DNA of 64,000 bases from Chloroflexota bacterium (GTDB lineage: Bacteria; Chloroflexota; Anaerolineae; Anaerolineales; Anaerolineaceae): NCBI GenBank assembly GCA_016887485.1, contig CP069394.1, forward strand, positions 1,984,001 to 2,048,000, read 5' to 3'. This document shows positions 6,598-11,742 of this stretch, one piece after another; position 1 is the first letter of the stretch; each line of letters starts with the position of its first letter. The notes below the pieces were generated by a model. It was given only the letters and a program-made list of their open reading frames with translations, was not told the DNA's origin and made no database searches. The position numbers were made by a program, and so were the translations under genes.

Positions 6598-7299
6598 ATG
6601 CCCAACCCAAGCCCTGTCTTCATCGGTGTCGAGATCCTGCCCACAGCAGGCCGTGTGCGCAACAGCTATGTCTATGCTGCGCTGGATGAGACGCGTGAAC
6701 TGCTGGCGATCGGGCAGGGAGACCGGGACGAACTGCTGGCCTATCTGGGCGGTCAGGCAGCCGCCATCGTGGCGGTCAGCGCCCCCCGCAGGCTCAAGAC
6801 CGGCCCGGAAAAGCAGGCAGAAGACCAGCTAGTGGAACAAGGTTTCCCGCTGGAACGAACCCCCGGCGTGCTAAAGGGCTGCCCTCGCTGGATGCGGGAA
6901 AGTTTCGATCTTTTCCAGCGGCTGGATGATTTCGGCTACGCACCCTATCCTGACGATGAAGCCGTCTGGCAAAGCCTGGAGACCCGCGCGGATGCTGTCT
7001 TCTGGCGGCTGCTGAACGGCAAGCTACCTTTGGAGCCTTCCCTGGAAGGACGCCTCCAGCGCCAGCTGATCCTGGCCGACCAGGAACTTCCCGTACCGGA
7101 TGCGATGGACTTTTTTATGGAGATCACCCGCTTCAAACTGGTGCAGGGGGAATTGCCATTGAAAAATATCTACACCAGCGGGGAACTGAATGCCCTGGCC
7201 GCAGCCTTGGTGGCCTGGCTGGCAGGCTGCGAACCGGAACGGATCGAGCTTTTGGACAACCCGGACAGTGCGACTATCGCTTTGCCGGTCCTGCTGTAG
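6598..7299 (+). CDS. DUF429-like protein (degenerate RNase H-fold nuclease?)
   Basis: The 233-residue protein has the layout of the DUF429 family: an N-terminal strand (VFIGVEI), a second strand (LDETRELLAIG), a third near IVAVSAPRR, then a helical C-terminal half. DUF429 proteins are predicted nucleases with an RNase H-like fold and acidic residues in the G-x-D and I-D-x-P motifs. Here these read GVE and VSAP, so at least one acidic ligand is missing. Family assignment is tentative and activity doubtful. The gene has its own promoter region and lies about 107 bp before the selenoprotein gene. Confidence 0.55.
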   Translation: MPNPSPVFIGVEILPTAGRVRNSYVYAALDETRELLAIGQGDRDELLAYLGGQAAAIVAVSAPRRLKTGPEKQAEDQLVEQGFPLERTPGVLKGCPRWMRESFDLFQRLDDFGYAPYPDDEAVWQSLETRADAVFWRLLNGKLPLEPSLEGRLQRQLILADQELPVPDAMDFFMEITRFKLVQGELPLKNIYTSGELNALAAALVAWLAGCEPERIELLDNPDSATIALPVLL

Positions 7300-7309
7300 A
7301 ACCTTTTGC

Positions 7310-7339
7310 TTGCGAATTTCCCTCCCAATTCCGTATAAT
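7310..7339 (+). promoter_or_regulatory. Sigma70-type promoter of the peroxiredoxin gene
   Basis: TTGCGA at 7310-7315 and a consensus TATAAT at 7334-7339 are separated by 18 bp. They lie between the stop of the DUF429-like gene and the peroxiredoxin start at 7407. Confidence 0.65.
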
Positions 7340-7406
7340 GACCACATAATACAAAATATCAAAGTCGGTACTCTTTATGCTGAAAAGTATTGATTGGAGC
7401 GCACCC

Positions 7407-7886
7407 ATGAGCAGTGGCAGAATAAATATTGGTGATCACGCTCGAGATTTTACCCTCGAAGATACCCAAGGGCGCTTCACCCGCCTCTCAGATTACGAAG
7501 GCCAGCAAATCGTCTACCTGATCTTCAACCGCGGTTTTACCTGACCGTTCTGCCGCCGGCACATGGCGCAGTTGCGCCAGGACTATGCCCTTTTCACCCA
7601 GCGGAATGTCGCGGTGATCGCCGTGGGGCCCGAATCCGTCTATAAGTTCAAAACCTATTGGGACGAGAACGACCTGCCCTTCATCGGCCTAGCCGACCCG
7701 GAGCAGACCGCTGCCCGCCGCTATGAGCAGGAGATCAACCTCTTCAAGTTGGGCCGTATGCCCGCCCAGATCATCATCGACAAGGGCGGCATCGTGCGCT
7801 ATGCCCATTATTCCAATTCCATGTCAGATATTCCCCATAACGAGGAAATCCTGGCAGTGATTGACGAAATTGCCGGAGAATCGTAA
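7407..7886 (+). CDS. Predicted selenocysteine-containing AhpC/TSA peroxiredoxin (in-frame UGA at 7542)
   Basis: The 159-residue thioredoxin-fold peroxiredoxin would reduce peroxides in the cytosol. Reading from ATG 7407 (GGAG ribosome binding site 7 bases upstream) gives MSSGRINIGDHARDF, then LSDYEGQQIVYLIF, NRGFT, a TGA codon at 7542-7544, PFCRRHMAQLRQDY and on to a stop at 7886 without any other interruption. Relatives in this group carry C-P-F-C at this place, with the first Cys as peroxidatic residue. Here the reading is U46-P-F-C49. Family-like sequence continues on both sides in one frame, and a hairpin with a G-containing loop lies at 7564-7579. Selenocysteine is therefore more likely than a nonsense mutation, although no sel genes are in the window. 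An annotation starting at the internal ATG 7563 would lose the active site. Confidence 0.85.
7542..7579 (+). promoter_or_regulatory. UGA codon with candidate bacterial SECIS hairpin
   Basis: Starting 19 bases after the TGA (7542-7544), the mRNA can form a 6-bp hairpin: TGGCGC (7564-7569), loop AGTT (7570-7573), GCGCCA (7574-7579). A G is among the first two loop bases, and the spacing lies within what is known for bacterial SECIS elements read by SelB. The hairpin lies inside the coding sequence, so it is also constrained by protein coding. Confidence 0.6.
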
Positions 7887-7957
7887 GCATAGCCACTCGC
7901 GTACCCATTCATTGGTTACAATAGATCCGATGCTTTTATTTGTGGGAGGGAAACGGC

Positions 7958-9223
7958 GTGATCTGGGATTATGAAAACCTGCTGGCCAGAAGGTTGATCC
8001 TCTGGGCCATCTTGTGTGGTTTAATGGGTGCAGGGCTTTTGATTTTTGGTGAGCCGCTCTGGCAAGGCATTGGCCTGTCGGCTCTTAGCTGGGGGGTGAT
8101 CGACGCACTCGTGGCGAGTACCATCCTGGAAAAGGTCCAAAACCACCTGGGGCAGCATTCCACGTTTCAACTCGAAGATGCGGAAGCCGTCCGCCTGCGC
8201 AAGATCCTGTGGCGCAGCAACGCCCTGGACGTGCTCTATGCCGCCGCCGGTACGGCACTTTTATTTATTCTCGACCCCGGCCTCCCCTTCTGGCACGGTT
8301 TTGGCTGGGGGGTGATCCTGCAAGGGGTGTTTCTGTTCGCCTTCGACCTTTACCACGCCCTCCACGTCCCCGACCCCCTGCAAATGCCCGCCCTGCCCTG
8401 GTTCACCGACCCGCGCCATGCCCCCTTCACATTGGAAGGCGGCCAGGCAGCGGCTATCCTGGTGCACGGCTTCCCCGGCACAGCGTTGGAGATTCGCCAA
8501 ATTGGTGAGATGCTATATCAGGCGGGTTGGACGGTGCGCGGAGTGCGACTGCCCGGCTTTGGGCCGGAGCTGGTGGAACTCATTAACCACAATAATCGCG
8601 ACTGGGTGGCATTCGTTAAAACGCAGGTGAGCGAGTTGAGAGCCTCCGGTCACAGCCCCATCCTGCTGGTCGGTTATTCCTTTGGCGGCGGGCTGGCATT
8701 GCAGGTTGCTGCGGAAACACCGGTTGATGGACTGGCCCTGTTGGCGCCATTTACCTGGCAGGAACCTCGCACCATGACCCCCATCCTCAATACCGCCCGC
8801 GCCCTTCTGCCGGTTGCCATTGACCCCTTCAAATTCGTACCCATCACTCATCCAATGATGATGGAAGAATTATTCCAGTATCTCCCGGAAATTGACCCGC
8901 ATAATCCGGACCAGCAGGCGGAACTTCGCTTGATCAAGGTCCCGCTGTATATCCTGAATCAGCTCCGGGAAGTCGGCCGGGAAGCGCTGACCGCTGCGCC
9001 CAAGGTGCAGACGCCCACCTTGATCATTCACGGTTCAAAAGATGACTTTATCCGTCCGCCCTCCATCAAACACCTGCGCGAAATCATGACTGCACCCATC
9101 CGGCTGGAAAGTGTGAATGGACCGCACAGCATGACCATGCCGCACAATCCCGCGTTGGGGGATGTGCTGGATCTGGTTGTCGATTTTGGTAATGAAATTT
9201 TAGAAGACTCCGCTCAGGGCTGA
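7958..9223 (+). CDS. Membrane-anchored alpha/beta hydrolase
   Basis: The protein of about 421 residues begins with four hydrophobic segments in its first ~135 residues (such as LILWAILCGLMGAGLLIF and FGWGVILQGVFLFAFDLYHAL). A serine hydrolase domain follows from about residue 165. The oxyanion region is ILVHGFPGT, the nucleophile Ser241 lies in GYSFGG, an acid residue is probably in GSKDDF, and His is in NGPHSMTM. This is a carboxylesterase or lipase type, with unknown substrate. The GTG at 7958 is chosen because GGGAGGG lies 7 bases upstream; a TTG at 7940 is in frame but lacks such a site. Its 3' end overlaps the convergent metal-ATPase gene by 10 bases. Confidence 0.82.
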   Translation: MIWDYENLLARRLILWAILCGLMGAGLLIFGEPLWQGIGLSALSWGVIDALVASTILEKVQNHLGQHSTFQLEDAEAVRLRKILWRSNALDVLYAAAGTALLFILDPGLPFWHGFGWGVILQGVFLFAFDLYHALHVPDPLQMPALPWFTDPRHAPFTLEGGQAAAILVHGFPGTALEIRQIGEMLYQAGWTVRGVRLPGFGPELVELINHNNRDWVAFVKTQVSELRASGHSPILLVGYSFGGGLALQVAAETPVDGLALLAPFTWQEPRTMTPILNTARALLPVAIDPFKFVPITHPMMMEELFQYLPEIDPHNPDQQAELRLIKVPLYILNQLREVGREALTAAPKVQTPTLIIHGSKDDFIRPPSIKHLREIMTAPIRLESVNGPHSMTMPHNPALGDVLDLVVDFGNEILEDSAQG

Positions 9224-11394
9224 ACGCTGAAGTGCAAAGCCCGCAGACCGTTGAGAGTCACCAGCAGCGAGACGCCCATATCCGCCATCACCGCCATCCA
9301 AAGCGGTGCATAGCCCAGAAAAGCGATCGCCATCACCAGCAGTTTAATCGCAATACTGAAAACAATGTTCTGGCGTACCAGCCGGTTTGCAAACCGCGAC
9401 AACCAAATGGCAAAAGGCAGTTTGCCGAGGTCATCGGCCATCAGCACCACATCGGCGGTTTCCATTGCCTGCATACTACCGCTACCGCCCATCGCAATCC
9501 CCAGGTCCGCTGAGGCCAGCGCAGGGGCATCATTGATCCCATCCCCCACCATCGCCACCGAACCATATTCCGCCCGCAGCGCCGAGATCGCTTCCTGCTT
9601 ATCGCCCGGCAGCAGATTCGCACGGACATCCATCAAACCGACCTTCTGCGCCATCACCGCGGCCACCGTGGCGTTATCTCCGGTGAGCATCACGGTATGT
9701 TTATGCATGTCATTCAGTTGGCGTACCACCACCTGAGCGTCATCTCGCAGGGTATCAGCCACGGACAGGAAACCGCGCACATGGTCACCATCACAAAGCA
9801 GCATGGCCGTGCGCCCGCCGGATTCGGCCTGTTTCACCCACTGGTGGACATCAGTGGGGATATTATGTTCAGCTTCAAAAAGTCGCAGACTGCCAATGGT
9901 CATCAACTGGCCATTGACCCGTCCTTCCAGTCCCAGGCCGCCGCGGGTCGTCAACCCCTCCGCAGCTGGATAGCGATCCAGTAAATGGCGTTTCTCTGCC
10001 TCTGCCGTGATCGCCTGGGCCAGGGGGTGAGTGCTGTGACGCTCGAGGGCATAGGCTAACGCCACCAGATCATCACATGCCGCACAGGCGGTATCGCCGA
10101 TGCAGCCCAGATCACGACTCTCCACCACCTGCGGCTCACCGGTGGTCAGGGTGCCGGTTTTATCAAAAGCAAAGGCCCCAACTTTCGAGAGTTGTTCCAT
10201 GAAGATCCCGCCCTTAAAGAGCACGCCTTCCTTGGCCGCGCGGGTGAGGCTGGCCACCATCGTCACGGGGGTGGAAATCACCAGGGCACAGGGGCAGCTG
10301 ATCACCAGCAGGACCAAGGCCCGCTGCAGCCAGCCGCGGGTGCCATCCGCCGGATTGAGGAAAGGTTCGCCAAAGAAGAGCGGTGGGATCACGGCCATCA
10401 ACACCGCCAGGACCACCATCGCCGGGGTGTAATATTGCGCAAATTTATCAATGAACTTCTGGCTGCGGGATTGCCGGTTTTGGGCTTCTGTCACCATCTG
10501 GATGATCCGGTTGAGGGTGCTGTCCTCGGTCAGCCGGGTCACTTCCACCACGAGCTGACCGCTGCCGTTCACCGTGCCGCTAAAGACCTCATCCCCTTTG
10601 TCCTTCCAGACTGGCAGGCTCTCGCCCGTGATCGGTGCCTGGTTGATGTCACTCTGCCCATCTGCAATTAGGCCATCAGCCGGAATACGGTCTCCTGCGC
10701 GCACCAGAATCCGGTCACCGATCGCCAATTCTTCCACCGGCACAAGGTATTCATGGTCGCCATGCAGCTTGATGGCATGAGTCGGGGAAAGGTCCTTTAA
10801 GTTGGAGAGCGTGCCGCGGGCGCGCTCATTGGTGAAGCCTTCCAAAGCCTCCGCCAGATCAAAGAGCAGGATCAGGGAGGCGGCTTCAGCATATTCACCG
10901 ATCACCACCGCGCCGATCCCGGCCAGTGTCATCAGGAAATTAATATTGAAGGTGTGGTTGATCCACAGGTTCATCACCCCGTTGCGGGCAATTGGCCAGC
11001 CAGCCAAAATCAACGCACCGATCTGAAGCGCCACGGCCACCCAGGATGGCAAGCCCAACCAACTCAGCAGCAGAGATAGCAACACCACCCCGCCAGCGAT
11101 CAGGGCAAGCTGGGTCTCAATACTTTGCAGCAGATAGCGCCAGAACCCCAATACCGCGTTGGGTTCCGCAGCCGGGGCATTCGCCCGCGGTTCTTCCGCT
11201 GCCACGCCGTATCCCAGCCGGGTGACCATTTTACGGACATCATCCTCGGAAACCGTCCCGCTGACGGTCAAAGTGCCATCAAAAAAGGACAATTCTACTT
11301 TTTCCACACCGGGCAGGGATGCTACCGACCCCTCCAGCCCCTTGGCGCAATCAACACAATCCAAACCTGTAATTTTTAAGTTCAACTCATTCAT
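9214..11394 (-). CDS. cadA: Heavy-metal translocating P1B-type ATPase (Zn/Cd/Pb type)
   Basis: The 726-residue membrane pump exports divalent soft metals using ATP. It has an N-terminal HMA domain with the metal-binding GLDCVDC motif, then transmembrane segments and the SCPCAL ion-site motif typical of the Zn/Cd/Pb subgroup. The phosphorylated Asp411 is in DKTGTLT, followed by the HP motif in HSTHPLAQ and the hinge GDGINDAPAL. The gene follows an ArsR/SmtB-type repressor by 15 bp, so both form a metal-inducible operon. Copper ATPases share most of these motifs, but the neighbouring regulator and the TGLDCVDC head point to Zn/Cd. Confidence 0.93.
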   Translation of the reverse strand: MNELNLKITGLDCVDCAKGLEGSVASLPGVEKVELSFFDGTLTVSGTVSEDDVRKMVTRLGYGVAAEEPRANAPAAEPNAVLGFWRYLLQSIETQLALIAGGVVLLSLLLSWLGLPSWVAVALQIGALILAGWPIARNGVMNLWINHTFNINFLMTLAGIGAVVIGEYAEAASLILLFDLAEALEGFTNERARGTLSNLKDLSPTHAIKLHGDHEYLVPVEELAIGDRILVRAGDRIPADGLIADGQSDINQAPITGESLPVWKDKGDEVFSGTVNGSGQLVVEVTRLTEDSTLNRIIQMVTEAQNRQSRSQKFIDKFAQYYTPAMVVLAVLMAVIPPLFFGEPFLNPADGTRGWLQRALVLLVISCPCALVISTPVTMVASLTRAAKEGVLFKGGIFMEQLSKVGAFAFDKTGTLTTGEPQVVESRDLGCIGDTACAACDDLVALAYALERHSTHPLAQAITAEAEKRHLLDRYPAAEGLTTRGGLGLEGRVNGQLMTIGSLRLFEAEHNIPTDVHQWVKQAESGGRTAMLLCDGDHVRGFLSVADTLRDDAQVVVRQLNDMHKHTVMLTGDNATVAAVMAQKVGLMDVRANLLPGDKQEAISALRAEYGSVAMVGDGINDAPALASADLGIAMGGSGSMQAMETADVVLMADDLGKLPFAIWLSRFANRLVRQNIVFSIAIKLLVMAIAFLGYAPLWMAVMADMGVSLLVTLNGLRALHFSVQP

Positions 11395-11409: not shown

Positions 11410-11742
11410 TCATTCGTAAAGGATATGTTCCAGCGTACGGCCCAGAATGTCACGGACATGATCATCCGCCAGGTCATAATAGACCTCGCGGCCGTCCTTG
11501 CGGTAGCGCACGATGTCGAGACTGCGTAATAACCGCAGTTGGTGCGACACTGCGCTCGGCGAAACCTCCAAATGGTCCGCAATATCACCCACGCCGCATT
11601 CCCCTTCGGAGAGCAGCGCGAGGATCCGCAGCCGGGTGGGGTCTGCCAGGGCTTTAAAGCTCTCCGCCATGGTTAAAATGACCTCGTCGGTCAGCGCTTC
11701 GCCATTCAGCACCAGTGTTGTCTCTTTCGTCGTGTCCATCAT
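11410..11742 (-). CDS. ArsR/SmtB-family metal-sensing repressor
   Basis: The 110-residue winged-helix protein carries the family's DPTRLRILALLSEGE helix and the recognition segment VSPSAVSHQLRLLRSL. The CadC-type ELCVCD site is incomplete (ECGVGD). The C-terminal helix offers Asp93, His95, His106 and Glu110, close to the alpha-5 zinc site of SmtB/CzrA. It is therefore likely to release DNA on binding zinc or a similar metal. An AGGA ribosome binding site precedes ATG 11742; ATG 11739 is an alternative. It is the first gene of the operon with the P-type ATPase. Confidence 0.93.
   Translation of the reverse strand: MMDTTKETTLVLNGEALTDEVILTMAESFKALADPTRLRILALLSEGECGVGDIADHLEVSPSAVSHQLRLLRSLDIVRYRKDGREVYYDLADDHVRDILGRTLEHILYE

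Follow-up and report, generated by a model that had tools for sequence, protein, structure and literature searches.

A small redoxin gene of the AhpC/TSA superfamily, located in the 64-kb window (by which we mean the whole stretch of 64,000 nucleotides that was analysed), has a TGA at codon 46 that almost certainly encodes selenocysteine (Sec) and not a stop, and we consider it probable that the protein carrying this UGA-decoded Sec46 functions as a selenol/thiol disulfide oxidoreductase. Translation of 7407-7886 on the forward strand gave a product reading MSSGRINIGD...IAGES and then TAA, in which the TGA at 7542-7544, in the context GFT-U-PFC, was the sole internal stop; matches to the AhpC-TSA (PF00578; 90.1 bits against a cut-off of 26) and Redoxin (PF08534; 62.4 bits) families spanned it. 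The original prediction had described one peroxiredoxin-like frame broken only by this TGA, and the reading of the frame together with the PF00578 match across the TGA confirmed it as a real observation. It had also held that ordinary gene calling would start at 7563 and lose the active site, and the mechanical list of open reading frames indeed began the redoxin frame at the ATG at 7563 and returned 107 aa with the first 52 residues lost. Annotation that treats the UGA as a stop would either lose the active site or place the start of the gene at a Met inside it.

The features of the gene are collected in Table 1. The coding sequence of the nearest relative, L051 (84% identical), starts at the ATG that corresponds to 7407, and the region upstream of it has diverged. 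A start at the ATG at 7377, in the same frame, was rejected, as the sequence upstream is unlike that of L051 and a suitably spaced GGAG precedes the ATG at 7407. The sigma-70-type promoter candidate showed 10 of 12 matches in a scan that gave 2 sites against 0.8 expected. Upstream of the redoxin gene lies a 233-aa frame (6598-7299, +) without a Pfam match, which is kept upstream in L051 and L055. On the reverse strand, a long frame at 9214-11394 resembles a heavy-metal P-type ATPase by eye, and beside it a small frame at 11410-11742 looks, again by eye, like an ArsR-type regulator.

Table 1. Coordinates of the redoxin gene and its associated features in the window.
Feature	Position	Strand	Basis
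Selenoprotein gene (predicted), 159-residue AhpC/TSA-superfamily redoxin with UxxC active site	7407..7886	+	One frame, single TGA; PF00578; 110 homologues; AF2 model
UGA codon 46, read as Sec (predicted), first residue of U-P-F-C	7542..7544	+	110/110 homologues; Cys in L131; Sec machinery in genome
Cys49 codon, second residue of UxxC, at peroxiredoxin peroxidatic Cys position	7551..7553	+	TGC/TGT in 110/110; profile alignment
Putative SECIS hairpin, 6-bp stem UGGCGC/GCGCCA, AGUU tetraloop at 7570-7573	7564..7579	+	Frozen synonymous sites, covariation
Pro119 codon, Trx-type cis-Pro position (catalytic Arg in peroxiredoxins)	7761..7763	+	Pro invariant in 64 sequences; Prx profile
TAA stop of redoxin gene	7884-7886	+	
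Shine-Dalgarno-like GGAG, 8 nt before ATG 7407	7395..7398	+	Read from sequence
Possible sigma-70-type promoter TTGCGA-18-TATAAT	7310..7339	+	Consensus scan only

Searches of 396 genomes of the Anaerolineae class and of GTDB contigs yielded 110 loci with 48-84% identity, all of which had TGA at codon 46 and a Cys codon (TGC or TGT) at codon 49 (110/110 each), while Pro119 was invariant in the 64 sequences that were aligned. The loci span Anaerolineae, Thermodesulfobacteriota, Bacillota, Actinomycetota and candidate phyla, and some of the placements outside Chloroflexota may be binning errors; the TGA was also present in further full-length members elsewhere in Chloroflexota. Isolates were found among the carriers, namely Leptolinea sp. 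HRD-7 (L080), Longilinea arvoryzae (L082) and Desulfobulbus alkaliphilus (L102). Since the TGA recurs in every homologue, isolates included, a sequencing error at 7542-7544 is excluded for practical purposes. The same fixation argues against a true stop, under which the locus would be a pseudogene or would encode two peptides, the downstream one from the ATG at 7563. A standard gene caller would report just such a 107-aa frame, but we regard this as exceedingly improbable. Differences between the window and L051 fell at third codon positions in 21 of 29 cases before the TGA and in 44 of 69 after it, a bias that points to purifying, protein-level selection on both sides. In addition, Met53 is not a start, being replaced by Leu or Val (CTG, GTC) in several relatives, and a TGA at a Cys-equivalent position, accompanied by a SECIS element and complete Sec machinery, would be unexpected for a pseudogene.

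The only close Cys homologue seen was L131 (39% identity), which reads FNRGLVCPFC and has Cys at the position of codon 46. It nests among the Sec forms in the tree, on a long branch and with some uncertainty, and its position suggests a change from Sec to Cys; in its genome (G289), SelA matched no more than weakly and the tRNA-Sec was borderline. Distant or paralogous Sec redoxins also occur in the class (L132, L136, L137, L138, L143, L150 and L165), with UPHC, UMQC, UPWC and UGVC motifs. Two distant Sec-form members, L154 (UPFA) and L158 (UVFR), no longer have a Cys at position 49, so that their Sec would lack a resolving partner.

Decoding of the UGA calls for the Sec machinery, and SelA, SelB, SelC and SelD were all present in one genome with the redoxin gene (G000; 2.9 Mb, 2 contigs): SelA scored 425 bits, SelB 366 bits and a tRNA-Sec with a TCA anticodon 63.9 bits, the last in agreement with ARAGORN. 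Two SelD genes were found. One is itself interrupted in frame by a TGA, in the context SCAGUASK, and thereby displays UxxK, the motif listed for Sec-SelD (PMC13188914). As a separate observation, the other SelD is fused to an N-terminal NifS/IscS-like cysteine desulfurase (L018:1396-3624, reverse strand; G000 contig C1, about 2653871-2656099), in one 742-aa frame with Cys and not Sec in the SelD active site, the Sec-SelD being separate (L019); two SelD types within one genome are unusual. Across the Anaerolineae-class genomes sampled, the TGA-form gene was present in 119 of 396, about a third, and SelA accompanied it in 110 of these 119 genomes compared with 207 of the 277 others (Fisher p = 3e-5). 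The nine TGA-form genomes that gave no SelA match are all fragmented assemblies, and SelB was found in eight of them and a strong tRNA-Sec in seven. Readthrough by some other route, whether through a code with TGA=Trp or by general suppression, found no support and has in our view a negligible chance of being right: TGA ends 17 of the 37 long frames in the window and is thus an ordinary stop elsewhere in it, so that no general code change is involved and a TGA=Trp code does not explain the redoxin gene. The presence of the tRNA-Sec with its TCA anticodon also speaks against this route, and the homologous residue in L131 is Cys, not Trp.

The published model of the bacterial SECIS (bSECIS) specifies a loop of 3-9 nt with a G in the first two positions, usually followed by G or U, a stem of 4-16 bp, a spacing of 16-37 nt and a minimum free energy of -7.5 or lower (PMC13188914). 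The hairpin at 7564-7579 agrees with this model in every respect, having an AGUU loop that begins 25 nt after the UGA, a 6-bp stem and an energy of -14.4 kcal/mol (7545-7582), and its exact sequence occurs as one copy in the genome. Folding of the sequence by itself gave no unusual stability (z about -0.5 to -1.4), so the case for a SECIS is a comparative one. With the UGA included, folding produced a structure in which the UGA itself is paired (-18.6 kcal/mol, z -1.3); this was rejected, since only the AGUU hairpin is conserved and covarying, and an Rfam scan of 6900-8200 gave no SECIS-type or other credible match. In E. coli, the fdhF SECIS likewise exposes a GU in its apical loop. The candidate loop of the Sec-SelD in the same genome reads GGUCC.

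Comparison among relatives revealed that synonymous sites under the hairpin are nearly frozen. Across 72 non-redundant homologues, codons 54-57 were GCG in 69, CAG in 72, TTG (Leu56) in 72 and CGC or CGT in 71, with a normalised codon entropy of 0-0.31 against about 0.67-1.0 for other conserved codons off the hairpin, the exception there being the Cys49 codon (TGC in 70/72, entropy 0.18); one peptide pattern used to find part of the loci overlies the hairpin, and the 30 loci found without that pattern showed the same freezing (TTG 30/30, CAG 30/30, GCG 28/30). The AGUU loop was present in 108 of 108 distinct sequences, distant paralogues included. On 20 diverse sequences, 95% of the cells of the stem pair, four of the six pairs have changed on both sides, and the covariation score of 0.375 was reached by none of 500 shuffles, slid controls attaining at most 0.171. 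The stem of L046 illustrates this, as a G-C pair has become A-U (GCG/CGC to GCA/TGC at codons 54 and 57), turning the otherwise conserved Arg57 into Cys, a compensatory change in which the RNA constraint appears to override the protein constraint. In the UMQC paralogue L138 the stem is different and the loop the same (UUUCCC-AGUU-GGGGAA); in the UMQC clade the AGUU loop is retained, and Cys relatives (CPQC, CGQC, CYQC) are without it, and the hairpin was absent from the Cys homologues examined (L131, L133, L134, L135, L142 and L147). The SECIS is unusually well supported, and with a single tetraloop throughout, compensatory changes in the stem and a hairpin lost from Cys homologues, the family is an unusually clear natural record of the constraint on a SECIS. 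A mechanical scan of the window for a TGA followed by a hairpin gave four further matches (10778 +, 54181 +, 54269 - and 49962 -), which look like chance or antisense frames.

Together, these data bear out the original prediction that the TGA is read as Sec, with the machinery present, the TGA universal among the homologues and a covarying SECIS hairpin at the right distance; two of the checks that it had proposed, a search of the source genome for selA, selB, selC and selD and a comparison of position 46 in homologues, found all four genes in the one case and TGA throughout, with Cys in L131, in the other. The recoding signals, their conservation and the machinery are matters of observation, from which we infer the insertion of Sec at codon 46 itself, and the selenoprotein reading of 7407-7886 is as strong as sequence allows.

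The original prediction had further placed the UGA at the peroxidatic Cys of a peroxiredoxin, and this part did not hold. Profile-profile alignment against genuine PrxQ/Bcp-type sequences of the same class (probability 99.9%, E 5e-34) ran ungapped through the active site and set Sec46 on the Thr of PxxxTxxC and Cys49 on the peroxidatic Cys, with Arg42 at the Pro position and Pro119 at the position of the catalytic Arg. Three of the four residues of the peroxiredoxin catalytic set are thus absent, Cys alone being kept, and Sec does not occupy the peroxidatic position that the TxxU motif would give it. Profile alignments with Bcp and ResA from the PDB agreed, the CxxC of ResA aligning with UxxC. 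Thioredoxin-type proteins differ from peroxiredoxins in having a cis-Pro in place of Arg and CxxC in place of TxxC (PMC2757866), and at both places the redoxin has the thioredoxin-like state. With Sec46 at the Thr position and Pro119 at the Arg position, the motif corresponds to a CxxC of the thioredoxin/ResA type with Sec first, and the alignments place the active site in this UxxC/cis-Pro layout. A genuine peroxiredoxin in which Sec replaces the peroxidatic Cys is accordingly very unlikely: the PF00578 and fold matches favour it, as does the existence of Sec-containing peroxiredoxins in anaerobes, but the ungapped alignment puts the peroxidatic Cys on Cys49 and the known motif of such proteins, PxxxTxxU (PMC13188914), is absent here.

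The AlphaFold2 model of the redoxin (pLDDT 92.5) has a peroxiredoxin-type extended thioredoxin fold, and Foldseek matched it to Bcp1 and Bcp4 with TM 0.87-0.92 and Z 24 (the best Z, 24, to Bcp4), in keeping with a peroxiredoxin fold. This extended fold is common to peroxiredoxins, ResA-type proteins and GPx proteins (PMC2757866), so the fold alone is not diagnostic of function. As an oxidoreductase, the protein may work as follows. SelA, SelD and tRNA-Sec would make Sec-tRNA, which SelB, bound to the AGUU-loop hairpin, would deliver to the UGA at codon 46; in the finished protein Sec46 would attack a disulfide or other oxidised substrate, Cys49 would resolve the mixed intermediate to leave a Sec-S bond, and the Sec46-Cys49 pair would be regenerated by a thioredoxin-type donor. 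We infer this catalytic cycle, as well as its substrate and reductant. No evident signal peptide or other export signal was found in the redoxin. Two findings count against an oxidoreductase. In overall fold the protein resembles nothing more closely than peroxiredoxins, so that it may have peroxidase activity, and among 80 loci no conserved neighbour points to a substrate or pathway; clustering of their flanking frames gave no operon partner recurring with the window's gene, and the alpha/beta hydrolase found upstream in about 20 of the 80 is not the window's arrangement. The main rival is a selenoprotein in which Sec46 reduces peroxides in the manner of GPx and Cys49 resolves, which we hold to be unlikely, though a serious alternative. 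It draws on the peroxiredoxin/GPx-type fold, on the Sec of GPx at the equivalent position of UxxT (motif in PMC13188914) and on a profile search that matched plant GPx5 weakly (E 1.1e-5); it sits poorly with the missing Pro/Thr/Arg set of peroxiredoxins, with P119 as a thioredoxin-type cis-Pro and with scores on NCBIfam peroxidase models that lie far under their cut-offs.

The published selenocysteine peroxiredoxin has TxxU, and UxxC proteins form a separate 'Prx-like' class (PMC13188914, PMC1088965). PrxU (TxxU) has superfamily and fold in common with the window protein and differs in having Sec as the last and not the first of the four motif residues, whereas the window protein lacks the Pro, Thr and Arg of peroxiredoxins and scores 27 bits on the PrxU model NF040737 against a cut-off of 270. 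On the window protein every NCBIfam selenoprotein model stayed below its cut-off. The best match, the SelL-related NF040769, also matches all 64 aligned members and differs in scoring 78.7 bits, under its curated cut-off of 120, and in covering residues 12-106 only; judging from these model scores, automatic annotation probably misses the Sec. Whether the present proteins make up a distinct and large selenoprotein subfamily, absent from NCBIfam models, likely truncated in annotation, and with a SECIS that would dictate H-M-A-Q-L-R-Q and have turned Arg57 into Cys in the L046 lineage, we hold to be evenly balanced. A search of open-licence papers found none describing this redoxin family in Anaerolineae. 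ResA/TlpA proteins resemble the window protein in a CxxC that matches UxxC position for position in the 3c71 alignment and in the thioredoxin-type cis-Pro position; ResA is, in contrast, membrane-anchored and extracytoplasmic, and the window protein, which has no evident export signal, uses Sec. The closest counterpart is the class listed in a 2026 review as 'Prx-like thiol:disulfide oxidoreductase, PF00578, UxxC/UxxU' and predicted there with high confidence (PMC13188914), examples being WP_010940744.1 (Table 1 of PMC13188914) and the 'Prx-like protein, UXXC' (PMC1088965). The window protein shares with it PF00578 (90 bits), a distant homology to peroxiredoxins and a thioredoxin-like UxxC (UPFC) that replaces TxxU, and so belongs to the class as defined by domain and motif, a placement that does not in itself prove the same subfamily. 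The kind of selenoprotein is already known; the present family differs in being centred on Chloroflexota and in that nearly all full-length members found carry Sec, and the useful additions are its frozen SECIS and near-fixed Sec.
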